A stretch of DNA of 64,000 nt from Salinibacterium sp. UTAS2018 (GTDB lineage: Bacteria > Actinomycetota > Actinomycetes > Actinomycetales > Microbacteriaceae): the NCBI RefSeq assembly GCF_004118935.1, contig NZ_CP035375.1, positions 2,914,001-2,978,000 on the forward strand, given 5' to 3'. The number at the start of each line of letters is the position of its first letter. Position 1 is the first letter of the stretch. Under the pieces are notes generated by a model, which searched no databases, had not been told where the DNA came from, and saw only the letters and a list, made by a program, of their open reading frames with translations. Positions 1,578 through 13,341 of the stretch are shown piece by piece. The translations under genes were made by a program, and so were the position numbers.

Positions 1578-1610
1578 AGTGAAACTCCTCATTGAGTTCT
1601 GAATCAAGTC

Positions 1611-1624
1611 GTCCGTATCCGAAC
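1611..1624 (-). promoter_or_regulatory. Putative operator copy A (permease promoter side)
   Basis: Read on the minus strand this is GTTCGGATACGGAC, a near-palindrome differing by one base from copy B at 1683-1696. It lies 34 nt upstream of the permease start. Part of a six-copy motif in this island. Confidence 0.55.
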
Positions 1625-1682
1625 GAGTTGCGTTCAACAATGGCGAAGACAGGGTGTCTTAGTCAAGCGTTTTCAGAAATTC

Positions 1683-1696
1683 ATTCGGATACGAAC
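1683..1696 (+). promoter_or_regulatory. Putative operator copy B overlapping the -35 of the decarboxylase-like gene
   Basis: ATTCGGATACGAAC contains the perfect palindrome TTCG-GATA-CGAA. It overlaps the likely -35 hexamer (1684-1689) of the next gene, the position expected for a repressor site. Confidence 0.6.
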
Positions 1697-1712
1697 CGTT
1701 TTGGGCTACACT
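1684..1712 (+). promoter_or_regulatory. Leaderless promoter of the acetoacetate-decarboxylase-like gene
   Basis: A -35-like TTCGGA (1684-1689) and a -10 TACACT (1707-1712) are separated by 17 nt. The -10 ends 7 nt before the ATG at 1720, and no Shine-Dalgarno sequence precedes the start. Confidence 0.55.
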
Positions 1713-1719
1713 CTGGCGC

Positions 1720-2529
1720 ATGACCGAACTCAATGGATTCCTTCCTCCCCTCACGCCGCGCGGGTCAAGTTCGCTCGTGCCGAAGATGCCCTGGTACTAC
1801 TCGGGAACGCTACTCACTGTCGAGTACTTGACCGATCCAGCCAACGTACGCGCGATCCTTCCTGACGATATTGACCTCGCTCCCGAACAACCTGGCGCCG
1901 TTGCCATTGTCTGGGCCGACTGGCAGTCCTGCAGCACGGGCGGCCTCGAACTGCTCGACCCCGTGCGCGCGCAGTACCTCGAAGCGTTCATGGTGGTGCG
2001 CTGCTCCCACAAGGGCATCGTCTATAGCCGCTGCGTCGCCATCTGGGTCAACAAAGACTTCGCTATCGGCCGCGGTTGGTTCCAGGGCTACCCCAAGAAG
2101 CTCGGCAACATTGCCGTTACGCGAGTCTTCAACAAGGGCAGGGCCACCCCCAAGCTCGAGAACGGCGGCCAGTTCGGAGCGTCGATCGCCGCCTACGACC
2201 ACCGCCTCGCTTCTGCCGTCGTCACGTTGCGCGAGCCCGCCGAAAGCAATGGCTTCGTCAATGGCCACAAGATGCTGCACAGCCGCTTCATGCCCTCCAT
2301 CAGCAAGGATGCGGGAATGTCGCTCGACCAGCTCATCACCATGGGCGGCACCGACGTCGAGATTGGCGAGACCTGGAAGGGCGATGCCGAACTTCACCTT
2401 GAAGACTCGCAGTGGGATGAGCTGCATTCAATCCTGCCCGTGCAAGAGATTCTCGGCGGCTACTACCGCGAGATCGGAGTCACCTTCAACGGTGGCGAAC
2501 TCGTAGAAGACCGCTCACAGGCGATCTAA
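1720..2529 (+). CDS. Acetoacetate decarboxylase family protein
   Basis: A 269-residue soluble protein with the ADC-family fold signature. The GYPKKLG segment at about residues 122-128 holds the lysine pair that in true acetoacetate decarboxylase forms the Schiff base, preceded by the conserved Y-x-E-A-F-M and V-x-S-R-C stretches. Family members decarboxylate beta-keto acids or act as hydratases and aldolase-like enzymes on related keto acids, so the substrate cannot be read from sequence. Its divergent partner is an APC permease, and its promoter overlaps an operator-like palindrome shared with the downstream catabolic genes. A role late in degradation of the imported compound is an inference. 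Confidence 0.85.
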   Translation: MTELNGFLPPLTPRGSSSLVPKMPWYYSGTLLTVEYLTDPANVRAILPDDIDLAPEQPGAVAIVWADWQSCSTGGLELLDPVRAQYLEAFMVVRCSHKGIVYSRCVAIWVNKDFAIGRGWFQGYPKKLGNIAVTRVFNKGRATPKLENGGQFGASIAAYDHRLASAVVTLREPAESNGFVNGHKMLHSRFMPSISKDAGMSLDQLITMGGTDVEIGETWKGDAELHLEDSQWDELHSILPVQEILGGYYREIGVTFNGGELVEDRSQAI

Positions 2530-2604
2530 GCGCCGACTGCGGCCGCGGCATCCGCTCGCTGCTGCAGTCGACACCGCCGCTCACAGTGGCTTACAGCGCG
2601 ACAC

Positions 2605-2641
2605 AGAAAAGCCCCGCCGATTCGCTCGGCGGGGCTTTTCT
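2605..2641. terminator. Bidirectional hairpin terminator between converging genes
   Basis: Perfect 16-bp arms at 2605-2620 and 2626-2641 with a 5-nt loop. The stem carries AAAA on one side and TTTT on the other, so it can act on both strands. It sits between the ADC-like gene and the converging glutamine-synthetase-family gene. Confidence 0.85.
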
Positions 2642-2662
2642 GGCGTCGTATTCGTTACCGGC

Positions 2663-4009
2663 TTAATAATCGGCGAAGTACTCGTCGATCTCCCACTGGC
2701 TCACGTCGCGCGTTGCCTTGTCTGAGACGGCATCTTCGTAGCGCATCACCTCGTCACGCTTGAGCACGCTGAAGACGTCGATGACGGTGCTGCCCATGGT
2801 GTCGCGCATCACCGTGTCGGCGTCGAGGGCGTCGAGCGCGGCAGTGAGGGTCATGGGCAAGATGTCAGCCGATTCGTCTTCGTAGGCCCAGCCTTCGACT
2901 GCTGTGGGGGCAGTCAGCTTGCGCTTGATCCCGTCGAGGCCAGCAGCGAGAGTGGATGCGATGAGCAGGTACGGGTTCGCTGCCGGGTCGCCGAGGCGAA
3001 CTTCGAGTCGCGTGCCTGCGCCGCGCTCCGGCGGTACCCGCAGCATGGCGCTGCGGTTGTCGTGGCCCCAGTTGGCGCGGTACGGAGCCAGAGTGTCGGG
3101 CCCAAGGCGCTTGTAGGCGTTTACGGTGGGGTTCGAGAGCGCTGCGAGTGAACCCGCGTGGGCGAGGATGCCGCCGATCATGTGGTTGGCCATCTCTGAG
3201 AGCCCAGAGCCGCCATCCGACATGATGTTGTTGCCGTCTTTGTCGACGACCGAGAAGTGCAGGTGGAAGCCGCTGCCACCCTCGTCGTCCCAGGGCTTGC
3301 CCACGAAGAGCGCGTGCTTGCCGGTGCGAGCGACGATGTCGCGAACCGCGGTCTTGAAGAGGAAAGTGCGGTCGGCGGCATCCAGAGCCTCGCTGTGCCA
3401 GAGGTTGATCTCATACTGTGCGGGGCTGAACTCGTGGTTGCCGGCGAAAACGCCAATGTCCATGCCGTCGAGCATGCGCATGAGGTTCAAAAACTGCCCG
3501 CCGGGGTCGACGTGCTCGCCGGTTGTGTAGACGCGACCGGTGCGGCTGAGGCTGCGGCTCCAGCCGTTCTCTTCGTCGTAGTTGGCGATGTAGAACTCAA
3601 GTTCGGGGCCCACAGTGGGGGTGAGGCCAAGGGCGGCGTATTCGGCGATGACCTTCTGTAGCACCGAGCGCGGTGCTACTTCGCTGACGCTGTGATCGGG
3701 GTTGAACGCGTCTCCGATAACGAGCGCCACTCCGGGTTCCCACGGCATCATCGTGAGGGTATCGGGGTCAATCTGTGTGAGAAGGTCGGGCAGCCCGGAT
3801 GACATGATGTCGTTTCCATCGAGCACGCCGCCGCCGGTCGTGGTTACCCAGACGCCTTGGCAGAACAGGGGAGACTTCGCGCGGTGCAATTGGCTGACGA
3901 GGAGATCTTTTGAACGGGTGATTCCCAGTACATCCGGGAAGATCAGGCGCAGAACATCGATCCCTTTTGCCTGCAGGTCTGTTTGGAGTGCTGCTATGTC
4001 GAGAGTCAT
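2663..4009 (-). CDS. Glutamine synthetase family protein (probable gamma-glutamyl-amine ligase)
   Basis: A 448-residue protein with the GS beta-grasp N-terminus and the catalytic C-terminal domain. The metal and glutamate-binding segments PELEFYI and FHLHFS and the later NPYLLIAS stretch are all visible. Its divergence from housekeeping GlnA, and its place beside an APC permease, a class I amidotransferase and an amine-forming PLP decarboxylase, point to the PuuA/GlnA3/GlnA4-type subgroup, which gamma-glutamylates polyamines or monoamines. That assignment is an inference from context. The start at 4009 has GGAGG 5-6 nt upstream; an in-frame ATG 30 nt earlier does not. It is divergent from the amidotransferase gene across a perfect 22-bp palindrome. 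Confidence 0.85.
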   Translation of the reverse strand: MTLDIAALQTDLQAKGIDVLRLIFPDVLGITRSKDLLVSQLHRAKSPLFCQGVWVTTTGGGVLDGNDIMSSGLPDLLTQIDPDTLTMMPWEPGVALVIGDAFNPDHSVSEVAPRSVLQKVIAEYAALGLTPTVGPELEFYIANYDEENGWSRSLSRTGRVYTTGEHVDPGGQFLNLMRMLDGMDIGVFAGNHEFSPAQYEINLWHSEALDAADRTFLFKTAVRDIVARTGKHALFVGKPWDDEGGSGFHLHFSVVDKDGNNIMSDGGSGLSEMANHMIGGILAHAGSLAALSNPTVNAYKRLGPDTLAPYRANWGHDNRSAMLRVPPERGAGTRLEVRLGDPAANPYLLIASTLAAGLDGIKRKLTAPTAVEGWAYEDESADILPMTLTAALDALDADTVMRDTMGSTVIDVFSVLKRDEVMRYEDAVSDKATRDVSQWEIDEYFADY

Positions 4010-4026
4010 TCTTCCTCCGAAAAATA

Positions 4027-4048
4027 AATCGTTCGGCACTGAACGATT
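4027..4048. promoter_or_regulatory. Perfect 8-6-8 palindrome (operator copy C)
   Basis: AATCGTTC and GAACGATT flank a 6-nt spacer in the gap between the divergent ligase and amidotransferase genes. The centre (4031-4044) reads GTTCGGCACTGAAC and matches the island's RTTYGG...AAY motif. Confidence 0.6.
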
Positions 4049-4118
4049 AGTGAGATACTAAGCCACAGAGCGGTGTGGCTGTCCACTCATCGCGAGAATT
4101 TACCGGAAAGGTACACAG

Positions 4119-4826
4119 ATGAGAGCCCTCTTGGTGCAACACGATCACGTCACCGCCAGCGGCCCAGTGGGCCACCGCCTCCGGGAGCGCGGCTTCGAAA
4201 TCGACGAGATCATGGTTGTCACCGAAGAGAATTTCGAGAACCCGAACGTTAATTTTGAATTTCCGGATGTCTCGGGCTACGACCTCGTCGTTCCCATGGG
4301 AGCCCCGTGGGGCGCGTGGGATGACGGCTGCATTGGCAAGTGGTTGACTCCGGAACTGGAGTGGGTGCGCTCCGCCATCGAGGCGGACATCCCGGTGCTG
4401 GGCATTTGTTTCGGTGGTCAGCTGATCGCACGGGCGCTCGGCGGCACGGTGGCTCGTGGCGCTCAATCAGAAATCGGTTGGAAAACGATTTACAGCGATG
4501 ACACCTCGCTGGTCTCCAACGGTCCCTGGTTTCAGTTTCACTACGACCAGTGGACGATGCCCGAAGGCGCCGTCGAAATCGCTCGCAACCCGATCGCACC
4601 TCAAGCATTCACCTACGGCCGCAGCTTGGCCGTGCAGTTTCATCCCGAACTCAATTCGGCAATTTTGGAAGGCTGGCTTGATCAGGGTGGTATCAACGAA
4701 GTGATCGCGAGCGGGCAGAATCCTGAGATCATGATCGCTCAAACCCGCGACGAAGAGGGCCGTGCCGCTGAACGCACGGCAGCCCTCGTGGATGCTTTCC
4801 TGGAGCGAATAGCCAAGCTCGTCTAG
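4119..4826 (+). CDS. Type 1 glutamine amidotransferase domain protein
   Basis: A stand-alone 235-residue class I GATase. The nucleophile Cys lies in GICFGGQ (about residue 90), and the catalytic His-x-Glu in VQFHPE (about residue 175). A GMP-synthase-like domain of this kind hydrolyses gamma-glutamyl amides, usually glutamine, releasing the amine or ammonia. No synthetase domain is fused. Next to a gamma-glutamyl ligase it could be the hydrolase that removes the glutamyl group after oxidation, as PuuD does in the putrescine pathway, although PuuD belongs to a different subfamily (inference). GGAAAGG lies about 9 nt before the ATG. It converges on the cupin gene with 24 nt between them. Confidence 0.85.
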   Translation: MRALLVQHDHVTASGPVGHRLRERGFEIDEIMVVTEENFENPNVNFEFPDVSGYDLVVPMGAPWGAWDDGCIGKWLTPELEWVRSAIEADIPVLGICFGGQLIARALGGTVARGAQSEIGWKTIYSDDTSLVSNGPWFQFHYDQWTMPEGAVEIARNPIAPQAFTYGRSLAVQFHPELNSAILEGWLDQGGINEVIASGQNPEIMIAQTRDEEGRAAERTAALVDAFLERIAKLV

Positions 4827-4850
4827 CGGCGGCGGGGGCGTCGCTGACCG

Positions 4851-5186
4851 CTACTGAGCTTTAATAACCGTGAGCAAAATCACGGAATCTTCGAGCGCAT
4901 CCACGGCATGGATCTCAGCGGGAATCGGCAGCAGATCGCCCGGCTTGCCTTCCCACGATTCGTCGGCGGACCGCAGTGCGATGTGTCCGACGAGTACCTG
5001 CAGTGTTGCTTCGCCGGGGCTGGAGTGCTCGGAGAGCCCTTCACCAGCCCGCATCGCCATCACCGTTTGTCTGAGCTGGGCATCGCGCCCGCCGCACACC
5101 GTCACGGCGCTGCGGCCGTTGTTCGAGGCGAGAGCGCTCGCCAATTCCTGAGAAGCAAGCTCGGTCAAAGAAACAGTGGTGTTCAT
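4851..5186 (-). CDS. Small single-domain cupin protein
   Basis: A 111-residue protein with one cupin barrel: the segments around ELRQTVMAMRAGEG, GEATLQVLVG and KPGDLLPIPAEIHAV correspond to the two cupin motifs. The metal-binding histidines are reduced; one sits in the second motif and one in the middle. Such small cupins may bind a small ligand or act as isomerases or stress proteins, and no reaction can be assigned. The start is the ATG at 5186 with AAAGG about 10 nt upstream; translation from 5219 would add 11 residues without support. It is the last gene of a minus-strand run with the PLP decarboxylase and the P450. Confidence 0.75.
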   Translation of the reverse strand: MNTTVSLTELASQELASALASNNGRSAVTVCGGRDAQLRQTVMAMRAGEGLSEHSSPGEATLQVLVGHIALRSADESWEGKPGDLLPIPAEIHAVDALEDSVILLTVIKAQ

Positions 5187-5273
5187 CTCGTCACGCCTTT
5201 CGTGCACGGTCGGCGTCATCGCCGTGGGGCAAAGCTACCGCAGTCGGTACTGGTGCTGCGCGAAGCGGGCCTG

Positions 5274-6644
5274 CTAGCGGAGCGTCTCCAGCGCCGCCAT
5301 GACCTTCGCAGCCTCGGTATCCGGGTTCACGAACGCGAGCCGCAACACCGTTTGACCACGCCATTTCGTCGGTACGCACAGGATGACGCCGTCGTGCGCC
5401 ACTTGCTTCGACCACGCCGAATACTGCTCCGCTGTCCACCCGCTCCGCACAAAGAGCAGCACTGAGAGCTCGGGCTCACGCACGAGTTCGAGGTAGTCGG
5501 TCGCGTCGATTGCGCGGGCGACTTCGCGAGCGGTCGACACCGAGGCTTCAACCGCATCCCGATACTTGTCGGTGCCGTGGGTGGCGAGGCTGAACCACAG
5601 TGGAAGGCCTCGCACGCGCCGCGAGAGGTGCAGGGCGAGCTCGCTGGGGTTCGACTCGTTGCGGTCAATGGCATCCAAATAGCTGGCGTGCTGAGAGTGC
5701 ACGGCCCGCGCCAGCTGGGGTTCGCGATAGATCAGCGCACAGCAGTCGTAGGGGGCGAAGAGCCACTTATGCGGGTCGACGATAAAGCTGTCTGCTCGTT
5801 CGATGCCGTCAAAGAGGGGGCGGATGCTCGGGGCGGCGAGCCCTGCGCCACCGTAGGCGCCGTCAACGTGCATCCAAACACCGAACTCTTCGCAGACGTC
5901 GGCGATATCGGCCAGGTCGTCGACAAGGCCCTCGTTAGTTGTTCCGGCCGATGCGACCACCGCAAACACGTTCGGGTTCTGTTCGAGAACGGCGCGCAGC
6001 GCTGCCCCGGTCATGTGCCCGCGATCATCGATCGGCACGTCAACCCGATCCACGTCGAGCGCTTTCGCGGCCGAATTGATCGACGAGTGAGCATTGGAGG
6101 TGTAGGCCAGTTGCCAGCCGCCAGCGGGGCGACCACCGCGTCGCGTTTTGGCGGTTTCGCGGGCAGTCATGAGCGCTGAGAGGTTGCCCGAGGTGCCGCC
6201 GGAGACGAAAGTGCCGCCGGCAGTATCGGGCCAATCGAGCAGTCCGATAATCCACTGCAGCGCTTGGTTCTCAGCGAAGATTGCGCCAGCACCCGACTCC
6301 CAGAGGCCGCCAAAAATGTTAGCGGAACTCGTGACGAGGTCGAAGGCTACTGCCGCCCGGGTAGGGGCGGCAGCGATATAAGCGAGGTTCAGCGGGTCAT
6401 CCTGAGCCCGCGTTGCAGGTTCAAGAATCTCATCGAAAATACGCAACGCTTCCGCGCCGCCGATGCCCTCCGGGCGGATCGCGTGACCAACCGCGGCTGC
6501 CAAATCGGCCGCTGGCCGCGCCGTCGAATACGGATCAGTCTCACGGACCATTCTCTTGGAGGTCCAGTCAATGGCGAGCTGAACTATTTCAGTCTCATCG
6601 CCCCAGACAGCGTGGGGTCTGCCCTGCGGCCGAACTTCGCTCAT
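5274..6644 (-). CDS. Group II PLP-dependent amino acid decarboxylase
   Basis: A 456-residue fold-type I PLP enzyme. The Schiff-base lysine is in DPHKWLF, the PLP-ring aspartate in HVDGAYGG, and the SGGTSGNL phosphate-binding turn is intact. This arrangement is that of aromatic-L-amino-acid, glutamate and diaminobutyrate decarboxylases. It should release CO2 from an amino acid to give an amine. An aromatic substrate (tyrosine or DOPA giving tyramine or dopamine) would connect it to the homoprotocatechuate enzymes encoded nearby, but that is an inference. The start codon is 21 nt from the P450 stop, suggesting co-transcription P450-decarboxylase-cupin. Confidence 0.85.
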   Translation of the reverse strand: MSEVRPQGRPHAVWGDETEIVQLAIDWTSKRMVRETDPYSTARPAADLAAAVGHAIRPEGIGGAEALRIFDEILEPATRAQDDPLNLAYIAAAPTRAAVAFDLVTSSANIFGGLWESGAGAIFAENQALQWIIGLLDWPDTAGGTFVSGGTSGNLSALMTARETAKTRRGGRPAGGWQLAYTSNAHSSINSAAKALDVDRVDVPIDDRGHMTGAALRAVLEQNPNVFAVVASAGTTNEGLVDDLADIADVCEEFGVWMHVDGAYGGAGLAAPSIRPLFDGIERADSFIVDPHKWLFAPYDCCALIYREPQLARAVHSQHASYLDAIDRNESNPSELALHLSRRVRGLPLWFSLATHGTDKYRDAVEASVSTAREVARAIDATDYLELVREPELSVLLFVRSGWTAEQYSAWSKQVAHDGVILCVPTKWRGQTVLRLAFVNPDTEAAKVMAALETLR

Positions 6645-6665
6645 GCAACTACCTCGCTCATGTGC

Positions 6666-7919
6666 CTACTTTGCTAGTTCGACGCGTACCGGGAGTCGTT
6701 TGATTCCGTTGACGAAATTGCTGCGCAGACGGTCAGGCTCACTGAGCTTCGTCATTCCCGAGATGCGGGGCAACAGGTTCTCGAACATAATACGGATCTC
6801 AAGGCGTGCCAGTGAGTTTCCGAGACACATGTGCGGGCCACCGCGACCGAACGCCATGTGCTCGTTCGGGTTGCGGGTGACATCCATCTTGTAAGGATCT
6901 TCAAAGATCTCGGGGTCGCGGTTGCCGGCAGCGAACCACGTGACAACTTTCTGGCCTTCCTTGATCGCTTGACCATTGATCTCGGTGTCCTTGGTCGCGG
7001 TGCGACGGAAGTGGTAAACCGGGCTGGCCATGCGCAAGAACTCTTCGACCGCCCACGGGATGAGTTCTGGTTTTTCTTGGAGTAGCTCAAGCTGGTCGGG
7101 GTTATCCATGAGGTAGTTCATGGAGTGCGTGATGGTGTGGCGTGTGGTCTCGTTGCCGGCGACGACGAGCAGCAGAAAGTAGCTATTGAAGTCGCGCTCG
7201 CTGAGCGCTTGGCCGTCCATCGGCGTCTGGTTGACGAGGCGCGACACGAGGTCGTTGCCGTCCTTGCCGCGACGCTGGTTGGCGAGGTCGTTGCCGTACT
7301 CGAAAACCTCCCGAGCTGCGGGGGAGCGGAAGGGCAGCAGTCGGAACTCTTCGCTCTCGGCGGAGCTTGCCAGTACGTCGGCGTGTTCCGGATCGTCGTT
7401 TCCGATCATCCGGTTGCCCCAGTCAATGAGCTTGTAAATGTCGGTGTCGGGCACATCGAGCATTTTGGCGAGAACCCGGATCGGGAAGTCGGCGGCCACC
7501 TGGTCGACGAATTCGAACTCGGGGTTCGCAAAGGCAGCATCAAGAGTGCTGGCAGTGAGGCCGCGAAGGAAAGTTTCGTAGCCGGCGACCGCACGGGGCG
7601 TGAACTCACCCTGCATGAGGCGGCGGAGCGCCCGGTGACGCACGCCATCCGTTTCGAGCATTGACTTGCGAGCTTCGATTTGGTCAGCGTCGAGCTCTTC
7701 GAGGTTGACGGTGCCGCGTTCGCTCGAGAACGTTTCGGTGTCGCGCAATACGGAAACGATGTCGTGGTAACGGGTGAGCGACCAGAAGCCGTGGTTGGGG
7801 GCTGGCTCTTCTGACCAGTGCACGGGGGCGTCAGTTCGAAGCTTGTCGAATACGTGCCAGGGTGTGCCGTTCTCGAACAGATCTAGGTCTGCCAGGGTGA
7901 CGTTCGCCATTGAAGTCAA
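6666..7919 (-). CDS. Cytochrome P450
   Basis: A soluble class I bacterial P450 of 417 residues. The I-helix oxygen-binding motif reads GNETTRH, the K-helix ExxR is EEFLRM, and the haem thiolate is the Cys in FGRGGPHMCLG (about residue 365). No membrane anchor is present. It needs a ferredoxin and reductase, which are encoded 4-6 kb away inside the hpa operon. The start is taken as TTG at 7919 because GGAGG lies exactly 6 nt upstream; the ATG at 7910 is 15 nt from that site and is the alternative (414 residues). It is divergent from marR, and a palindromic operator lies 17 nt upstream of the start. The substrate is unknown; hydroxylation of an aromatic intermediate would fit the context. Confidence 0.93.
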   Translation of the reverse strand: MTSMANVTLADLDLFENGTPWHVFDKLRTDAPVHWSEEPAPNHGFWSLTRYHDIVSVLRDTETFSSERGTVNLEELDADQIEARKSMLETDGVRHRALRRLMQGEFTPRAVAGYETFLRGLTASTLDAAFANPEFEFVDQVAADFPIRVLAKMLDVPDTDIYKLIDWGNRMIGNDDPEHADVLASSAESEEFRLLPFRSPAAREVFEYGNDLANQRRGKDGNDLVSRLVNQTPMDGQALSERDFNSYFLLLVVAGNETTRHTITHSMNYLMDNPDQLELLQEKPELIPWAVEEFLRMASPVYHFRRTATKDTEINGQAIKEGQKVVTWFAAGNRDPEIFEDPYKMDVTRNPNEHMAFGRGGPHMCLGNSLARLEIRIMFENLLPRISGMTKLSEPDRLRSNFVNGIKRLPVRVELAK

Positions 7920-7935
7920 CTCAATCCTCCGTGGG

Positions 7936-7953
7936 TTGTTTGGATACAAACAA
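7936..7953. promoter_or_regulatory. Perfect palindrome in the P450/marR gap (operator copy D)
   Basis: TTGTTTG-GATA-CAAACAA is an exact 7-4-7 inverted repeat. Its core GTTTGGATACAAAC shares GGATAC with the copies at 1611 and 1683. It is a likely site of the adjacent MarR regulator (inference). Confidence 0.65.
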
Positions 7954-8057
7954 TATGCCACATCGGCGCGTTTCTGTGAGCGATGTCCTCAAAAACTTTC
8001 TGAACGCCGGGGGTTAGATAGAGTAACCGCAGCTAAACGCGAGCAAGGGGACCCTCC

Positions 8058-8558
8058 GTGGCCGGACCACACACACTGACTGAGACTGAACGCCAAGTAC
8101 AAGCGAGAGTCGGCGGCCTTCCGCTGGACTACTCCGCAATGGCCGTAGCATCGAACCTTTTTCGGGCGGCAAACGCCGTGCGTAATCACTTCGAGCGCAC
8201 CGTGTTGTCGGAGCACAATCTCTCCTGGACAGCGTTTGTCGTTCTCTGGGTTACCTGGATCTGGGAGCCGATTGAAACTCGCCAGATCGCGCTTGAGGGA
8301 GGCTTCTCTAAAGCGACACTCACGGGAGTGCTCACGACTCTTGAGCGCCGTGGCTGGCTCACGCGCGAACGCAGCGAAACTGATGGTCGCCTCGTTGTGG
8401 TGAAGCTCACTGATCGTGGGCGCGAACTCATGACGGAACTCTTCCCTGCATTCAATCAGCAAGAGCAAGCGGTGGCGGGTCCGGTCGCGCCTGAGCGCCG
8501 CGAAGAGCTCGCCGACATGCTGCGCCTGATCACGGCGGGCGTCGAACCCAAGGGCTAA
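8058..8558 (+). CDS. MarR family transcriptional regulator
   Basis: A 166-residue winged-helix protein. Helix-turn-helix residues span roughly 75-100 (the GGFSKATLTGVLTTLERRGWL region), followed by the wing DGRLVVVKLTDRG, the hallmark MarR sequence. MarR proteins are usually ligand-released repressors of nearby catabolic genes. The start is GTG at 8058 with AAGGGG 8 nt before it. It is divergent from the P450 and directly upstream of hpaE, with palindromes in both flanking gaps. It is the natural candidate to bind the recurring RTTYGG-N5-AAY sites. Confidence 0.92.
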   Translation: MAGPHTLTETERQVQARVGGLPLDYSAMAVASNLFRAANAVRNHFERTVLSEHNLSWTAFVVLWVTWIWEPIETRQIALEGGFSKATLTGVLTTLERRGWLTRERSETDGRLVVVKLTDRGRELMTELFPAFNQQEQAVAGPVAPERREELADMLRLITAGVEPKG

Positions 8559-8588
8559 CGCTCACGCAATTTTTGGTGGTCGGATGCT

Positions 8589-8612
8589 CCAAACGCTTGT
8601 TTGGGCTCGAAT
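8589..8612. promoter_or_regulatory. Overlapping palindrome and operator copy E downstream of marR
   Basis: CCAAAC-GCTT-GTTTGG (8589-8604) is a perfect 6-4-6 inverted repeat. From 8599 the sequence GTTTGGGCTCGAAT also fits the island motif. Located 31 nt after the marR stop and 67 nt before hpaE. Confidence 0.5.
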
Positions 8613-8667
8613 CACTCGCTAAGGTAAGTCATTAGCATCCGAATGACTTAACGGCGAGCGATTCGAG
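8606..8667. promoter_or_regulatory. Nested double inverted repeat upstream of hpaE (includes operator copy F)
   Basis: Outer arms of 13 nt at 8606-8618 and 8655-8667 pair with one mismatch. An inner perfect 9-8-9 repeat (TAAGTCATT/AATGACTTA) occupies 8625-8650, offset by one base. The inner centre read on the minus strand gives ATTCGGATGCTAAT. The repeat ends 11 nt before the hpaE start. Confidence 0.6.
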
Positions 8668-8678
8668 ACGGGACAACT

Positions 8679-10142
8679 ATGACCAACGTTCAAGTAGCCG
8701 GAGTGACCGTCGATACGCGGCACTTCATCAACGGAGAGCGCGTCGAATCCGACGACACCTTCACCAACGTGTCGCCGATCGACGCCAGTGCACTCGGAGA
8801 AATCTCCCGCGGCGGTCAGCGCGAGGTCGACCTAGCCGTTGCTGCCGCTCGGGCAGCATTCCCCGGCTGGGCTGCCACCAGTCCCCAGGATCGTGCAGCC
8901 ATCATGCACAAGATCGCCGACCTCGTCGAAGAGCGCGTCAGCGACCTCGCCAACGTCGAGACGATGGACAACGGAGCACTCCTGCGCAGCCACCTGCGCG
9001 GTGTGATGCCGCGCGTGGCCCACAACTTCCGGTTCTTCGCTGACTACCTCGTGAACGACCTCGGACATCCGGACTTCGAAACTCGTGGCCACAACAACCA
9101 CGTCTCGTGGGATCCTTCCGGAGTCGCCGCCCTCATCACGCCGTGGAATGCACCGCTCATGCTTGCCACCTGGAAGATTGCTCCGGCGCTCGCCGCGGGT
9201 GACACCGTGGTGCTGAAGCCAGCCGAATGGACACCGCTCACGGCATCCCTCTTCGCTGACATCACCGCCGAAGCTGGGCTTCCCGCCGGCGTCTTCAACG
9301 TCGTGCAGGGTTACGGAAAAGAGGCGGGTGCCGCACTGGTCGCTCACCCCGATCTCAGCCGCATCTCCTTCACGGGCTCGGTGCCGACGGCCAAATCGAT
9401 CGCTCGCGCCGCCGCCGACAACCTCACCCCCTGCAGCTTCGAGCTCGGGGGCAAGAGCCCCTGCATCGTCATGGAAGACGCCGACCTCGAACTCGCTGCA
9501 ACGCTCGCGGTTGAGCAATACGACAACGCCGGCCAGGTCTGTCTCTCGGGCACGCGCATCCTCGTTCACGAGAACATTGCGGATGCCTTCGCCGAAGCGT
9601 TCAAAGCCAAGGTAGCGACCCTGCGCCAGGGTGACCCGCGTGACATCGAGACCGATATTGGTCCGCAGGTTCACCGCGTGCACTTCGAGCGGATCAAGGG
9701 ATTCGTTGATCGCGCGAAAGACGGCGGAGCAGACATTCTCTTCGGTGGCGGCCCGAACGCTGAACTCGGTGGCCTGTACTTTTCGCCGACGCTCGTCAAG
9801 AACCCCGAGGTTGGTAGCGAAATCGTCACGCAGGAGGTCTTCGGGCCGGTGCTGACGATGCAGACCTTTACGACGGATGACGAACTCGTCGCCATGGCGA
9901 ACGGCACCGAATTCGGTCTCGCCGCCATTCTCGTCTCCGGCAACCGCGAGCACGCCGACGTTATCGCCAAGCAGCTCGTTGCCGGCACAATCTGGGTTAA
10001 CTGCTTCTTCGTGCGCGACTTGCGGGCCCCCTTCGGCGGTTCCAAGAAGTCGGGTGTCGGTCGCGAGGGCGGCACCTGGTCATTTGATTTCTACGCAGAT
10101 GTTAAAAACACGGTGGTTTCACCGAACGGATGGAAGGAATAG
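8679..10142 (+). CDS. hpaE: Aldehyde dehydrogenase, HpaE-like (5-carboxymethyl-2-hydroxymuconate semialdehyde dehydrogenase type)
   Basis: A 487-residue NAD(P)-dependent aldehyde dehydrogenase. The catalytic Cys is in GQVCLSGTR (about residue 288), the general-base Glu in FELGGKSP (about residue 254), and the cofactor-binding FTGSVPTAK motif precedes them. The C-terminal signature FVRDLRAPFGGSKKSGVGREGG is that of the HpaE/HpcC and related hydroxymuconic semialdehyde dehydrogenases. With the HpaD-like dioxygenase 2 nt downstream, the likely reaction is oxidation of the semialdehyde ring-cleavage product to the dicarboxylate. It is the first gene of a five-gene operon. The nested palindrome just upstream suggests repression by MarR. 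Confidence 0.88.
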   Translation: MTNVQVAGVTVDTRHFINGERVESDDTFTNVSPIDASALGEISRGGQREVDLAVAAARAAFPGWAATSPQDRAAIMHKIADLVEERVSDLANVETMDNGALLRSHLRGVMPRVAHNFRFFADYLVNDLGHPDFETRGHNNHVSWDPSGVAALITPWNAPLMLATWKIAPALAAGDTVVLKPAEWTPLTASLFADITAEAGLPAGVFNVVQGYGKEAGAALVAHPDLSRISFTGSVPTAKSIARAAADNLTPCSFELGGKSPCIVMEDADLELAATLAVEQYDNAGQVCLSGTRILVHENIADAFAEAFKAKVATLRQGDPRDIETDIGPQVHRVHFERIKGFVDRAKDGGADILFGGGPNAELGGLYFSPTLVKNPEVGSEIVTQEVFGPVLTMQTFTTDDELVAMANGTEFGLAAILVSGNREHADVIAKQLVAGTIWVNCFFVRDLRAPFGGSKKSGVGREGGTWSFDFYADVKNTVVSPNGWKE

Positions 10143-10144
10143 TC

Positions 10145-11056
10145 ATGGGAGAAGTAGTTGGCGCTGGGCTGATCGCCCACGTACCTACGATCATGTTGCC
10201 CAAAGAGGTCCGTATGGAACTCAATGAGGGCAAGGATTCAACGCTCGTTGAAGGGCTCGAACGGCTCCGCAAGGACTACTTCGAGAATGACGATTACGAC
10301 ACTGTTGTTGTGCTCGACAGCCATTGGGCGACCACGGTTGAATTCGTTGTTACGGCGCACGAGCGTCGCCACGGTAAGTTCACGTCAGAAGAGTTGCCGC
10401 GCGGAATGAGCGGCGTGCCGTATGACTTCATCGGAGACCCCGAGCTCGCGAAGCTCATGGGGGAGCAGGCCGAAAAGAACGGCACCTGGATCACCCCGAT
10501 CGACGATGAATACCTGCCGATCATGTACGCCACGATCAACCTGTGGGAGTACCTCGGCAAGGGCCTTCCCGACAAAAAATGGGTGAGCGTCTCGATCTGC
10601 CAGACCGCGACCGACGAAGACTTCTTGCGTGCGGGTCGTGCCATTGGTGAAGCAATAGCCAAGAGTGACCGCCGCGTCATCCTGCTCGCATCGGGTGCGC
10701 TTTCGCACACCTTCTATAAGCTGCGCGATCTGCGCAAGCACGAGATGGCCGATCCGAGCCACATTTTCTCGGATGCCGCCCGTGCCGCGGACTACGAACG
10801 TCTCGACTGGTTCAAGGCTGGCGACCACGCTCAGGTGTTGGAAACCATGCCCGCGTTCCAGAAGGTGCGCCCCGAGGCCATGTTTGGCCACTGGCTCATG
10901 ACGGCGGGGGCAATTGGCGAAGAGGCGTGCACTGCTCCCGGCGTAATGTACAGCGAATACGAAAATTCCATCGGCACCGGTCAGGTGCACGTGTGGTTCC
11001 CGAAGCCAGAAGGTGGCTTCCCAGCAGCAAAGGATGTGGTTCTCTCTCGTGACTGA
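10145..11056 (+). CDS. hpaD: Class III extradiol dioxygenase, HpaD-like (3,4-dihydroxyphenylacetate 2,3-dioxygenase)
   Basis: A 303-residue LigB-superfamily protein. The metal-binding His of the AHVPT motif near the N-terminus, the SHW motif (about residue 60), the ELP segment, LASGALSH (about residue 185) and the C-terminal GTGQVHVWFP all follow the HpaD/HpcB pattern. It should use Fe(II) and O2 to cleave the homoprotocatechuate ring next to one hydroxyl, giving the semialdehyde used by the preceding gene product. The start is ATG at 10145, 2 nt after the hpaE stop, with GGAAGGA upstream. Related LigB enzymes act on other catechols, so the exact substrate is an inference. Confidence 0.85.
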   Translation: MGEVVGAGLIAHVPTIMLPKEVRMELNEGKDSTLVEGLERLRKDYFENDDYDTVVVLDSHWATTVEFVVTAHERRHGKFTSEELPRGMSGVPYDFIGDPELAKLMGEQAEKNGTWITPIDDEYLPIMYATINLWEYLGKGLPDKKWVSVSICQTATDEDFLRAGRAIGEAIAKSDRRVILLASGALSHTFYKLRDLRKHEMADPSHIFSDAARAADYERLDWFKAGDHAQVLETMPAFQKVRPEAMFGHWLMTAGAIGEEACTAPGVMYSEYENSIGTGQVHVWFPKPEGGFPAAKDVVLSRD

Positions 11057-11927
11057 ACTCCGCAGAATACTTCTTGATGGTTACCCGACACAGGTAACCC
11101 GCCACGGCGATGTTCTCGTCGCTGGAGACGGCCGCGAGGTTGGTGTCGACGAGGCAATTCACTTGCCGCCGACCGAGCCGAGCAAGATCATTGCCGTGCA
11201 CTTGAACTACGCCAGCCGCACTGAAGAGTTCATGACCAAGCTGCCCGCAGCTCCGACCTACTTTCAGAAGCCGGTCACCGCGCTCAACACTCACAAGGGT
11301 GATGTTGTGCGGCCCGAGGGCTGCAAGTGGTTGAACTTCGAGGGTGAGATCGTCATCGTGATCGGCCGTACGTGCCGCAATGTTTCGCCCGACCAGGCTA
11401 GCGACTACATCGCCGGCTACTCGATCGGTAACGACTACGGTCTGCATGATTTCCGCGACACGGATGCCGGTTCCATGCTTCGAGTGAAGGGTAGCGACAC
11501 GCTCGCTCCCGTTGGCCCGGGTCTCGTGACGGATTGGGATTTCCGTGGCAAGCAGTTGCGCACCATTGTGAACGGTGAGGTCAAGCAAGATGACAACACC
11601 GACAACATGGAGTGGGACATGAACTACCTCGTGGCCGACATTGCGCGCACGATCACGCTGAGCCCCGGCGACATGCTGTTCTCGGGAACGCCCGCATTCT
11701 CGCGTCCGGTGCAGCCCGGCGACGTTGTTGAGGTCGAAGTTGAAGGCCTGGGCAAGCTGACGAACCGTATCGTTACGGGCCCGACTGCGATCCGCACCGA
11801 CGTGGGAGCGCAGCCGACCGAGAGCGAAGAGGTAATGTCGACAGCAATGGGTGGCGACTGGGAGTTCCGCGGAATTCGGACCCCGTCGAAGGATCTCTAC
11901 CCGTCGAAGATTGAGGAAAAACGATGA
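11049..11927 (+). CDS. Fumarylacetoacetate hydrolase family protein (HpaG-type)
   Basis: A 292-residue protein with the FAH C-terminal barrel. The E-x-E metal site is in NFEGEIVIVIG (about residue 100), followed by GYSIGNDYG, VKGSDTLAPVGP and SPGDMLFSGTP, all conserved in the family. In the homoprotocatechuate pathway HpaG decarboxylates and isomerises the carboxymethyl-oxo-hexenedioate; other family members are acylpyruvate hydrolases. The GTG start at 11049 overlaps the hpaD stop by 8 nt, so translation is coupled. Only one FAH gene is present, whereas classical HpaG has two fused FAH domains; the second half and hpaF, hpaH and hpaI are not in this window. Confidence 0.85.
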   Translation: MTELRRILLDGYPTQVTRHGDVLVAGDGREVGVDEAIHLPPTEPSKIIAVHLNYASRTEEFMTKLPAAPTYFQKPVTALNTHKGDVVRPEGCKWLNFEGEIVIVIGRTCRNVSPDQASDYIAGYSIGNDYGLHDFRDTDAGSMLRVKGSDTLAPVGPGLVTDWDFRGKQLRTIVNGEVKQDDNTDNMEWDMNYLVADIARTITLSPGDMLFSGTPAFSRPVQPGDVVEVEVEGLGKLTNRIVTGPTAIRTDVGAQPTESEEVMSTAMGGDWEFRGIRTPSKDLYPSKIEEKR

Positions 11928-12115
11928 TCAAAATCGAAGTCGACATGAACCAGTGCCAGCACTATGGCCAGTGCGTGTTTGAGGCACCCGACAACTTCAA
12001 GCTCAACGATGACGACAAGCTCGAGTACGTGGCCGAAGCGCCCGACTCGGAGCGCGACAACATTGAAGCCGCTGTTGATGTATGCCCGATGCAGGCCATT
12101 CGAATCGTCGAATAG
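11924..12115 (+). CDS. Small [3Fe-4S]-type ferredoxin
   Basis: A 63-residue acidic protein with three cluster cysteines: C-x2-Y-x2-C at residues 11-17 (CQHYGQC) and C-P near residue 54 (VCPMQAI). The position that is Cys in 4Fe-4S ferredoxins is occupied by Tyr, so a [3Fe-4S] cluster is expected. This is the usual actinobacterial P450 ferredoxin. It overlaps the FAH stop codon (ATGA) and is followed by the reductase with a TAGTG junction. The P450 at 6666-7919 is the only obvious acceptor in the window; no Rieske oxygenase was seen. Confidence 0.9.
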   Translation: MIKIEVDMNQCQHYGQCVFEAPDNFKLNDDDKLEYVAEAPDSERDNIEAAVDVCPMQAIRIVE

Positions 12116-13341
12116 TGTCTGAGGCTAACCCCGCCGCACCGGTCGTTATTGTCGGTGCGGCGATGGGTGGGCTGCGCGCGGCGGAGTCTCTCCGTCGTTC
12201 GGGCTACACCGGTGCTATCCGCGTGGTTGGCGAAGAACTTCACGCTCCCTATAACCGTCCGCCTCTCTCCAAAGAGGTGTTGGCCACTGACGTGACCCAC
12301 GAAGCTGTCGCGTTTCCATCGCGCGCCGAGATGGGTGATGTGGAGTGGATGCTCGGGGTACGCGCCACCGCGGTCGATCTTGATGCGCACACTCTCACCA
12401 CCGACGATGGGTCTGTGCAGGAGTGGCGTGCCCTGGTTATCGCGACGGGCCTGCGCGCTCGCCGCTTGGACTTTGCTCCGATCGCCGGTCGTCACGTTGT
12501 CCGTTCGCTGGATGACGCGATGGCTCTGCGCGCCGAGCTCACCGAGGGTGCGCGCGTCGTTGTCGTCGGCTCGGGCTTCTTAGGCTGCGAACTGAGCGCC
12601 ACCGCTCGCAAGTTGGGCTGCTCGGTCACCATTGTGACGCCGAGTGCCGAGCCCATGATGCGTCCGCTTGGCGACCTCGTGGCGAAGGAAATGCGCCGTC
12701 GTCTCACCGACGAGGGCGTCGAAATTTTCTCTGGCGTGAACGTTGCTGCTATCCACGGCGAGACTGCTGTTGAGTCTGTTGAGCTGAGCGATGGCCGCGT
12801 GATCGAGGCCGATGTCGTGATCGAGTCTGTTGGCTCGCACTGCAACATCGAATGGCTTGAGGGAACGAACCTCGATGTCTCCGATGGAGTTCTCGCTGAC
12901 AACGCGATGCGCGCGGTCTCGACCGATGGTGTCTCCCTCGATGACGTTTACGTGGTGGGCGATATCGCTCGCTTCCCGAACCCCATGTTCGACGACGTTG
13001 CTCGCCGTATCGAGCACTGGAATATCCCGACCGACACCGGCAAGCGCGCGGGTGCCGTTCTCGCGGCACGCCTCGCCGACGACGGTTCCTTTGCCGACGT
13101 GGTGACTAAACCGTTCGCTCCGATGCCGTCATTCTGGTCGAACCAGTTCGAGATCAAGCTGCAGGCCTACGGTCTGTTGGGCTTGGTGTCGGATGACGAC
13201 ATCCGCGTGCTCGAGGGAGATCTCACCGACCAGGCTGCCGTGGGCTACTACCGCGACGACCGTCTCGTGGGCGTTCTCGGAATTGGCATGAAAGCCGCGC
13301 TGCTGCCGTATCGCAAGCAGATCGCGGAGGGTGGCGCGTAG
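12115..13341 (+). CDS. FAD-dependent NAD(P)H-ferredoxin reductase
   Basis: A 408-residue pyridine nucleotide-disulphide oxidoreductase of the ferredoxin/rubredoxin/putidaredoxin reductase type. An N-terminal FAD-binding Rossmann motif (VIVGAAMGG), a second NAD-binding motif (VVGSGFLGCE, about residue 150), the FAD-contacting VYVVGDIAR, and the FWSNQF start of the C-terminal reductase domain are visible. It passes electrons from NAD(P)H to the preceding ferredoxin. The GTG start shares its G with the ferredoxin stop (TAGTG), so the two are translationally coupled. It is the last gene of the hpa operon. Confidence 0.92.
   Translation: MSEANPAAPVVIVGAAMGGLRAAESLRRSGYTGAIRVVGEELHAPYNRPPLSKEVLATDVTHEAVAFPSRAEMGDVEWMLGVRATAVDLDAHTLTTDDGSVQEWRALVIATGLRARRLDFAPIAGRHVVRSLDDAMALRAELTEGARVVVVGSGFLGCELSATARKLGCSVTIVTPSAEPMMRPLGDLVAKEMRRRLTDEGVEIFSGVNVAAIHGETAVESVELSDGRVIEADVVIESVGSHCNIEWLEGTNLDVSDGVLADNAMRAVSTDGVSLDDVYVVGDIARFPNPMFDDVARRIEHWNIPTDTGKRAGAVLAARLADDGSFADVVTKPFAPMPSFWSNQFEIKLQAYGLLGLVSDDDIRVLEGDLTDQAAVGYYRDDRLVGVLGIGMKAALLPYRKQIAEGGA

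Follow-up and report, generated by a model that had tools for sequence, protein, structure and literature searches.

A conserved 20-bp palindrome at the promoters of a catabolic island of Salinibacterium, a probable operator of its MarR-family regulator

HpaR, a member of the MarR family, is the repressor of the homoprotocatechuate hpa-meta operon in E. coli W and Yersinia pseudotuberculosis. The Yersinia HpaR operator is reported as TTAA-N4-TTAA, and one site overlaps the -10 element (PMC7180172). AesR, a MarR-family regulator of Corynebacterium glutamicum, uses the operator ACTATG-N3-CATAGT together with a second repeat, its targets being its own and a divergent operon (PMC13413800). A third point of comparison is provided by the gamma-glutamylation routes of NpaA1 (1-naphthylamine) and AtdA1 (aniline), which join a GS-like ligase to an oxygenase and ring-cleavage enzymes (PMC11335346). 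Here we describe a catabolic island of Salinibacterium sp. UTAS2018 that can be compared with all three. It lies in a stretch of 64,000 nucleotides (contig NZ_CP035375.1, positions 2,914,001 to 2,978,000, forward strand; called the window, and numbered from its first letter). A preliminary description of the window had proposed that a 14-bp motif, RTTYGG-N5-AAY, marks four promoter regions of the island as targets of the MarR-family protein encoded in its middle.

Like HpaR, the island MarR belongs to the MarR family and adjoins hpaE- and hpaD-like genes, and the HpaR model TIGR02337 is its best NCBIfam match. Its score of 57.0 bits is, unlike that of an HpaR, below the equivalog cut-off of 121.2. 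The operator also differs from that of Yersinia HpaR (PMC7180172): the element found here is a 20-bp palindrome with the consensus ATCGTTCGGATCCGAACGAT. Moreover, the island set adds the genes for a permease, a GS-like ligase, an amidotransferase, an acetoacetate decarboxylase-like (ADC-like) protein and a cytochrome P450. By analogy, the island MarR may be regarded as HpaR-like in role, not as HpaR by model score. With AesR it shares putative palindromic operators at promoters in an actinobacterium, but the repeat differs from ACTATG-N3-CATAGT (PMC13413800).

Comparison of sequences confirmed five of the six proposed sites as putative operators belonging to a deeply conserved set. These are operator 1 (1608-1627, minus strand; proposed at 1611) at the permease promoter, operator 2 (1680-1699, plus; 1683) at the promoter of the ADC-like gene, operator 3 (4028-4047, plus; 4031) between the genes of the GS-like ligase and the amidotransferase, operator 4 (7935-7954, plus; 7938) between the P450 gene and marR, and operator 5 (8628-8647, minus; 8631) over the expected transcription start of the hpaE-like gene. 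It is very likely that the sites mark one co-regulated gene set, because many related actinobacteria have closely similar sites at the corresponding genes, again next to the gene of this regulator. We infer, with a probability of about 0.85, that the MarR of the island represses six transcription units and is released when a pathway compound binds. In such a scheme MarR would bind each of the five palindromes as a dimer and would block transcription by occupying either a promoter hexamer (-35 or -10) or the transcription start; binding of the compound would free the promoters, so that the genes for uptake, glutamylation, oxygenation and ring cleavage would come on together.

The six matches to RTTYGG-N5-AAY were all present, with one mismatch at 1611 as had been said. 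The four intergenic regions, put at about 510 bp in total, measured 142, 109, 147 and 120 bp (the last being 8559-8678), in sum 518 bp, and GGATAC was indeed common to three sites (1611 on the minus strand, 1683 and 7938). An expectation of one match per 33 kb is correct under equal base use, and the excess over chance also held: the window has 10 exact matches compared with 2.14 expected, and none of 100 shuffles reached 10 (the largest count was 8). Five of these 10 matches are in the island promoters. As a description of the element, the 14-bp pattern was nevertheless wrong. In the genome of 2,995,446 bp it has 130 exact matches, compared with 63 for the reversed control, a spread that the preliminary description had itself named as evidence against its motif. 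Since it is so unspecific, the 14-bp consensus was rejected as a genome-wide tool. Several of the sites had also been called exact palindromes. Arms of 7-8 bp are exact at 4031, 7938 and 8631, but the centre is mismatched there; pairing over the whole palindrome was 8/10 for these three sites, 7/10 for 1611, and 5/10 for both 1683 and 8599.

Longer patterns were more restricted. TTYGGATRCNAAY has three exact matches in the genome, all inside the island; it is their place and not their number that carries weight, as with equal base use a genome of this size should hold about three by chance. For TYRTTYGGATRCRAAYRA with at most two mismatches, five distinct places were found in the genome, four of them in the island, and the site at 4031 was missed. 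With three mismatches, the 18-mer of the same search gave 48 rows compared with 13 for the control. TYRTTYGG-N5-AAYRA has five exact genome matches, three in the island. Other matches in the genome, at genome positions 1824873 and 297230, lie within long open frames that are putative genes. All three longer patterns were built after seeing the sites, and therefore the comparative tests weigh more.

For these tests, 80 of the 469 loci found around relatives of MarR were used. They include Salinibacterium, Rhodoglobus, Frigoribacterium, Lacisediminihabitans, Microcella, Rhodoluna, Aurantimicrobium and many metagenome-assembled genomes, and some are near-duplicates; the MarR of one member, Salinibacterium amurskyense DSM 16400, is 96% identical to that of the island. 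A first matrix was built from 33 distinct sites out of 76, after dropping sites of the 8599 type and those with fewer than 16 of 20 consensus positions; two matches away from the main promoters (in L071 and L074; L and G numbers are our handles for loci and genomes) were kept. At 14 bits, this matrix gave 380 matches in the 1,262,009 bases of the 80 loci, while 20 control matrices, with the columns kept and their order permuted, averaged 4.85 matches and never exceeded 12. When the threshold was lowered to 12 bits, 371 of 396 matches lay at most 250 bp upstream of cluster genes, and four lay inside them. Judged by their length, ten of the 80 contigs had contributed to training (L136-L142, L147, L151, L152); without them, 322 of 344 matches were upstream of cluster genes.

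The distribution over the genes was clear-cut (presence of a gene being scored by tblastn at 38% identity or more). An upstream site was found for the GS-like gene in 70/70 loci, the P450 gene in 76/76, the permease gene in 51/51, HPAE in 76/77, ADC in 60/62 and the amidotransferase gene in 67/70. MARR had one in 78 of the 80 loci, often a site common with P450. For the inner genes of the same loci no upstream site appeared: FAH 0/68, HPCD 0/72, FDR 0/60, DDC 0/17, NIT 0/13, AT 0/8 and CUP 0/6. The sites thus stand at the heads of transcription units and not at inner genes, giving the regulon sharp borders.

The first matrix scored the five operators at 22.6, 22.0, 19.4, 24.8 and 24.2 bits (operators 1 to 5), having been trained partly on the same five sites. 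A second matrix comprised 171 distinct sites of more distant relatives only (L153-L215, none named Salinibacterium), the sites having been picked initially with the first matrix. It ranked the five operators first to fifth in the window: 7935 (24.0 bits), 8628 (22.3), 4028 (21.5), 1680 (19.5) and 1608 (15.3), followed by 8596 (10.6) and 21259 (9.6). In 30 shuffled windows, keeping base composition only, the mean maximum was 9.8 and the highest value 16.4.

Among the closest relatives, conservation was nearly complete. Of 99 genomes, 18 have a close MarR (E < 1e-40, a cut-off read from the search results). One of these is the genome of the window; the 17 others supplied 18 loci around their MarR copies, as G091 has two. 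Gene order is largely kept in the 14 loci that are closest (L061-L074). Operators 1, 3, 4 and 5 are kept in 14/14, as parts of the longer palindrome, and operator 2 in 13/14, being absent in L071.

The reach of the element is wider than this group. When the search was extended to the class, 32 of 394 genomes proved to have the MarR, and 22 of 28 short loci from this search carried a site of 13 bits (19 of 25 when L233, L234 and L235, already among the 80, are set aside). In 20 longer loci, 52 matches were obtained at 13 bits, compared with a control maximum of 4; 17 of these loci came from the class-wide search and L076-L078 from an earlier set, and L277 repeats L197. Despite differing gene order, 44 of the 52 matches preceded homologues of these cluster genes, although some of these assignments rest on weak homologues because presence was accepted here at E <= 1e-15 and any identity. 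The LigB-type dioxygenase of the cluster was present in 17 of the 99 genomes, and all 17 also hold the MarR; in G038 (82% complete) the MarR was found but no dioxygenase. Within the genus, the 18-mer gave 4-12 rows in the 14 genomes with MarR and 0-3 in the 13 without it, where palindromic sites may count on both strands and places are those among the matches listed.

Relative to promoters predicted by a simple consensus count, the operators lie at positions from which a bound repressor would be expected to prevent transcription. For the permease gene, the predicted -10 is CATTGT (1637-1642, minus strand) with the -35 TTGACT at 1661-1666, and operator 1 lies just past this -10. Operator 2 covers the predicted -35 of the ADC-like gene (TTCGGA, 1684-1689), the -10 of which is TACACT (1707-1712, plus). 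Operator 3 falls on the predicted -35 of the amidotransferase gene and just past the predicted -10 of the ligase gene, and operator 4 overlaps the predicted -10 of the P450 gene. The ATG of the ADC-like gene comes seven bases after its predicted -10 (1707-1720); this closeness suggests a leaderless transcript.

The sixth proposed site, 8599, was rejected as an operator. It scored 9.4 bits with the first matrix, compared with 19.4-24.8 for the other five, and 10.6 bits (position 8596) with that of the distant relatives, compared with 15.3-24.0. In an alignment of 15 sequences, one of them the window, its equivalents ranged from 9.4 down to -24.2 bits. What is conserved is TTGTNN-N17-TANNNT, kept in 15/15 of these sequences and ending two bases before operator 5. 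Hence the conserved part of 8599 is the predicted -35 hexamer of the hpaE-like promoter (TTGTTT, 8597-8602, plus strand), and the -10 hexamer, supported by both the promoter count and conservation, is TAAGGT (8620-8625, plus).

In the window, marR itself is not clearly a target, since its predicted -10 (TAGAGT, 8019-8024, plus) is free of operator overlap and operator 4, the closest one, is about 65 bp away. In 38 of the 80 loci (L153-L213), marR is preceded by a site at a distance of at most 91 bp, and in 30 of the 38 there is a second, farther site. Judged from these arrangements, autoregulation of marR may differ between lineages.

MarR is the probable binder of the operators because the sites accompany it in different families and in differently arranged clusters. 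Palindromic operators at the target promoters, as expected for a MarR-family regulator, were found, with MarR as their putative binder. Residues K85, T87, L88, G90, V91, T94 and L95 of the protein did not vary among 20 MarR proteins with identities as low as 45%; the helix holding K85-L95 is presumably the recognition helix. The proposal that one regulon joins the amine-handling and ring-cleavage units is strongly supported by the comparison, with 8599 taken out and with binding by MarR remaining the inferred part of it.

Several observations weigh against repression of the whole set by MarR. Twenty-one of the 396 matches in the 80 loci adjoin no query gene. Six of the 28 short class-wide loci have no 13-bit site (L247, L250, L254, L257-L259), and neither do L263, L266 and L267, though L267 has the cluster; with the second matrix weaker sites appeared, such as one of 15.7 bits upstream of the ligase gene in L267, and several loci of the large-genome family f37 have only weaker, altered sites. 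Outside the genus, some MarR-less genomes show many 18-mer rows (G079 12, G046 6, G050 5, G095 5). Operator 1, at 15.3 bits, is below the best of the 30 shuffles (16.4), so it has no standing on its second-matrix score alone and is supported by its conservation instead. Finally, L077, the second MarR copy of G091, lies where the cluster is absent and has no site nearby. In the genomes searched, the cluster was always accompanied by the MarR (17 of 17 with the dioxygenase), so that absence cannot separate MarR from another binder.

The last two points also favour a different assignment, in which the island operators would be bound by a regulator encoded elsewhere, MarR acting on something else or not at all. 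The indirect link between MarR and the sites, the constant co-occurrence that leaves room for a third factor and the predicted marR promoter clear of any operator would all agree with it. We consider it unlikely, as the sites stay with MarR in several families, even where the genes are rearranged, a site is close to marR in 38 of 80 loci, and marR is the sole regulator gene, its product being the only member of a DNA-binding family, among the 14 island proteins scanned. Less likely still is that MarR binds but works chiefly through activation or DNA looping. Yersinia HpaR is reported to activate one target (PMC7180172), operator 2 overlaps a predicted -35, and operators can sit upstream of weak promoters; yet operators 1, 4 and 5 lie at or after predicted -10 elements, and the 2-bp gap between operator 5 and the hpaE-like -10, kept in 15/15 sequences, suits blocking. 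That the repeats are chance or genome background is scarcely credible for the five operators. The 14-bp pattern was chosen after seeing the sites and has its 130 genome matches, and for 8599, a promoter hexamer, this explanation holds. It is contradicted for the others by the permuted-matrix controls in both the 80 and the 20 longer loci, by the near-total presence at heads of transcription units with absence at inner genes, and by the ranking with the distant-relative matrix. Repression by the island MarR hence remains the reading that we prefer.

The proposed binder (8058-8558, plus strand) carries the winged-helix domain PF01047 at 48.5 bits, above the curated cut-off of 24.6. To its left are the genes of an APC-type amino acid permease (81-1577, minus; PF00324 and PF13520 above cut-off), the ADC-like, MppR-like protein (1720-2529, plus; PF06314 at 202.8 bits, NCBIfam MppR 175.9 with a cut-off of 380), the GS-like (gamma-glutamyl) ligase (2663-4009, minus), a class I glutamine amidotransferase-like protein (4119-4826, plus; PF00117 above cut-off) and the P450 (6666-7910, minus; PF00067). 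The ligase is a GoaS candidate by its membership of PF00120 (315.1 bits), with every NCBIfam GS model below cut-off. To the right follow an HpaE-like aldehyde dehydrogenase (8679-10142, plus), a LigB-type, HpaD-like ring-cleavage dioxygenase (10145-11056, plus; PF02900 at 81.6 bits), a fumarylacetoacetate hydrolase-family protein (11013-11927, plus; PF01557) and an FAD-dependent reductase (12082-13341, plus; PF07992, PF14759), possibly on the electron donor side of the P450. The HpaE model (TIGR02299) gave 513.1 bits of the 638.35 required and HpaD_Fe (TIGR02298) 127.3 of 315.95, so a homoprotocatechuate pathway was not recognised by these models. As none of the models for HpaE, HpaD and HpaR reaches its cut-off, gene names such as hpaE and the term homoprotocatechuate are tentative. 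A PLP-dependent decarboxylase gene (5274-6644, minus; PF00282) lies downstream of the P450 gene; it was found in 17 of the 80 loci and is therefore an optional part of the island.

Judged from its gene content, the cluster probably breaks down an aromatic amine. The GS-like ligase, amidotransferase and P450 recall gamma-glutamylation as in the NpaA1 and AtdA1 routes; unlike those routes, the island has a P450 as oxygenase candidate and a LigB-type ring-cleaving enzyme (PMC11335346). It is conceivable, although we lean slightly against it, that the genes under this operator form a catabolic regulon not described before, common among aquatic actinobacteria and extending to further families and orders of the class, through which an aromatic amine is gamma-glutamylated, oxidised by the P450 and then cleaved by the LigB-type enzyme. 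Among the papers listed by literature searches that covered few subscription journals, none dealt with this operator or this regulon. That an aromatic pathway should be under MarR control is by itself unsurprising; what is gained is that a loose 14-bp observation has become a defined operator with wide comparative support, through which the substrate of an aromatic route, as yet uncharacterised and present in many actinobacteria, may be approached.

If the regulon is real, the operator could serve as a guide to pathway genes still missing, among them those for a PuuC-like dehydrogenase, an aspartate-ammonia-lyase-like protein and a second GS-like protein. Beside the cluster in several freshwater lineages, sites were found upstream of aspartate-ammonia-lyase family genes (L157 2648, L165 3926, L208 3824, L180 993); three of the proteins were scanned and gave 702-724 bits compared with a subfamily cut-off of 510, that of L180 being assigned from its translation only. 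Sites at L142 988 and L152 2294 are upstream of aldehyde dehydrogenase genes, the former with PuuC as best NCBIfam match (533 of 850 bits, below cut-off) and the latter assigned by eye. Two more, L192 2038 and L203 2034, precede a second GS-like gene, for which the L192 protein was scanned and scored below cut-off.

Away from the island, an intergenic palindrome-like site was observed at genome positions 2681389-2681406 (about 1500-1519 of L279), some 120 bp upstream of a gene that resembles, by eye, one for an amino-acid-binding transport protein. Among the 27 genomes of the genus, it is present in two only, the window's own and G026.

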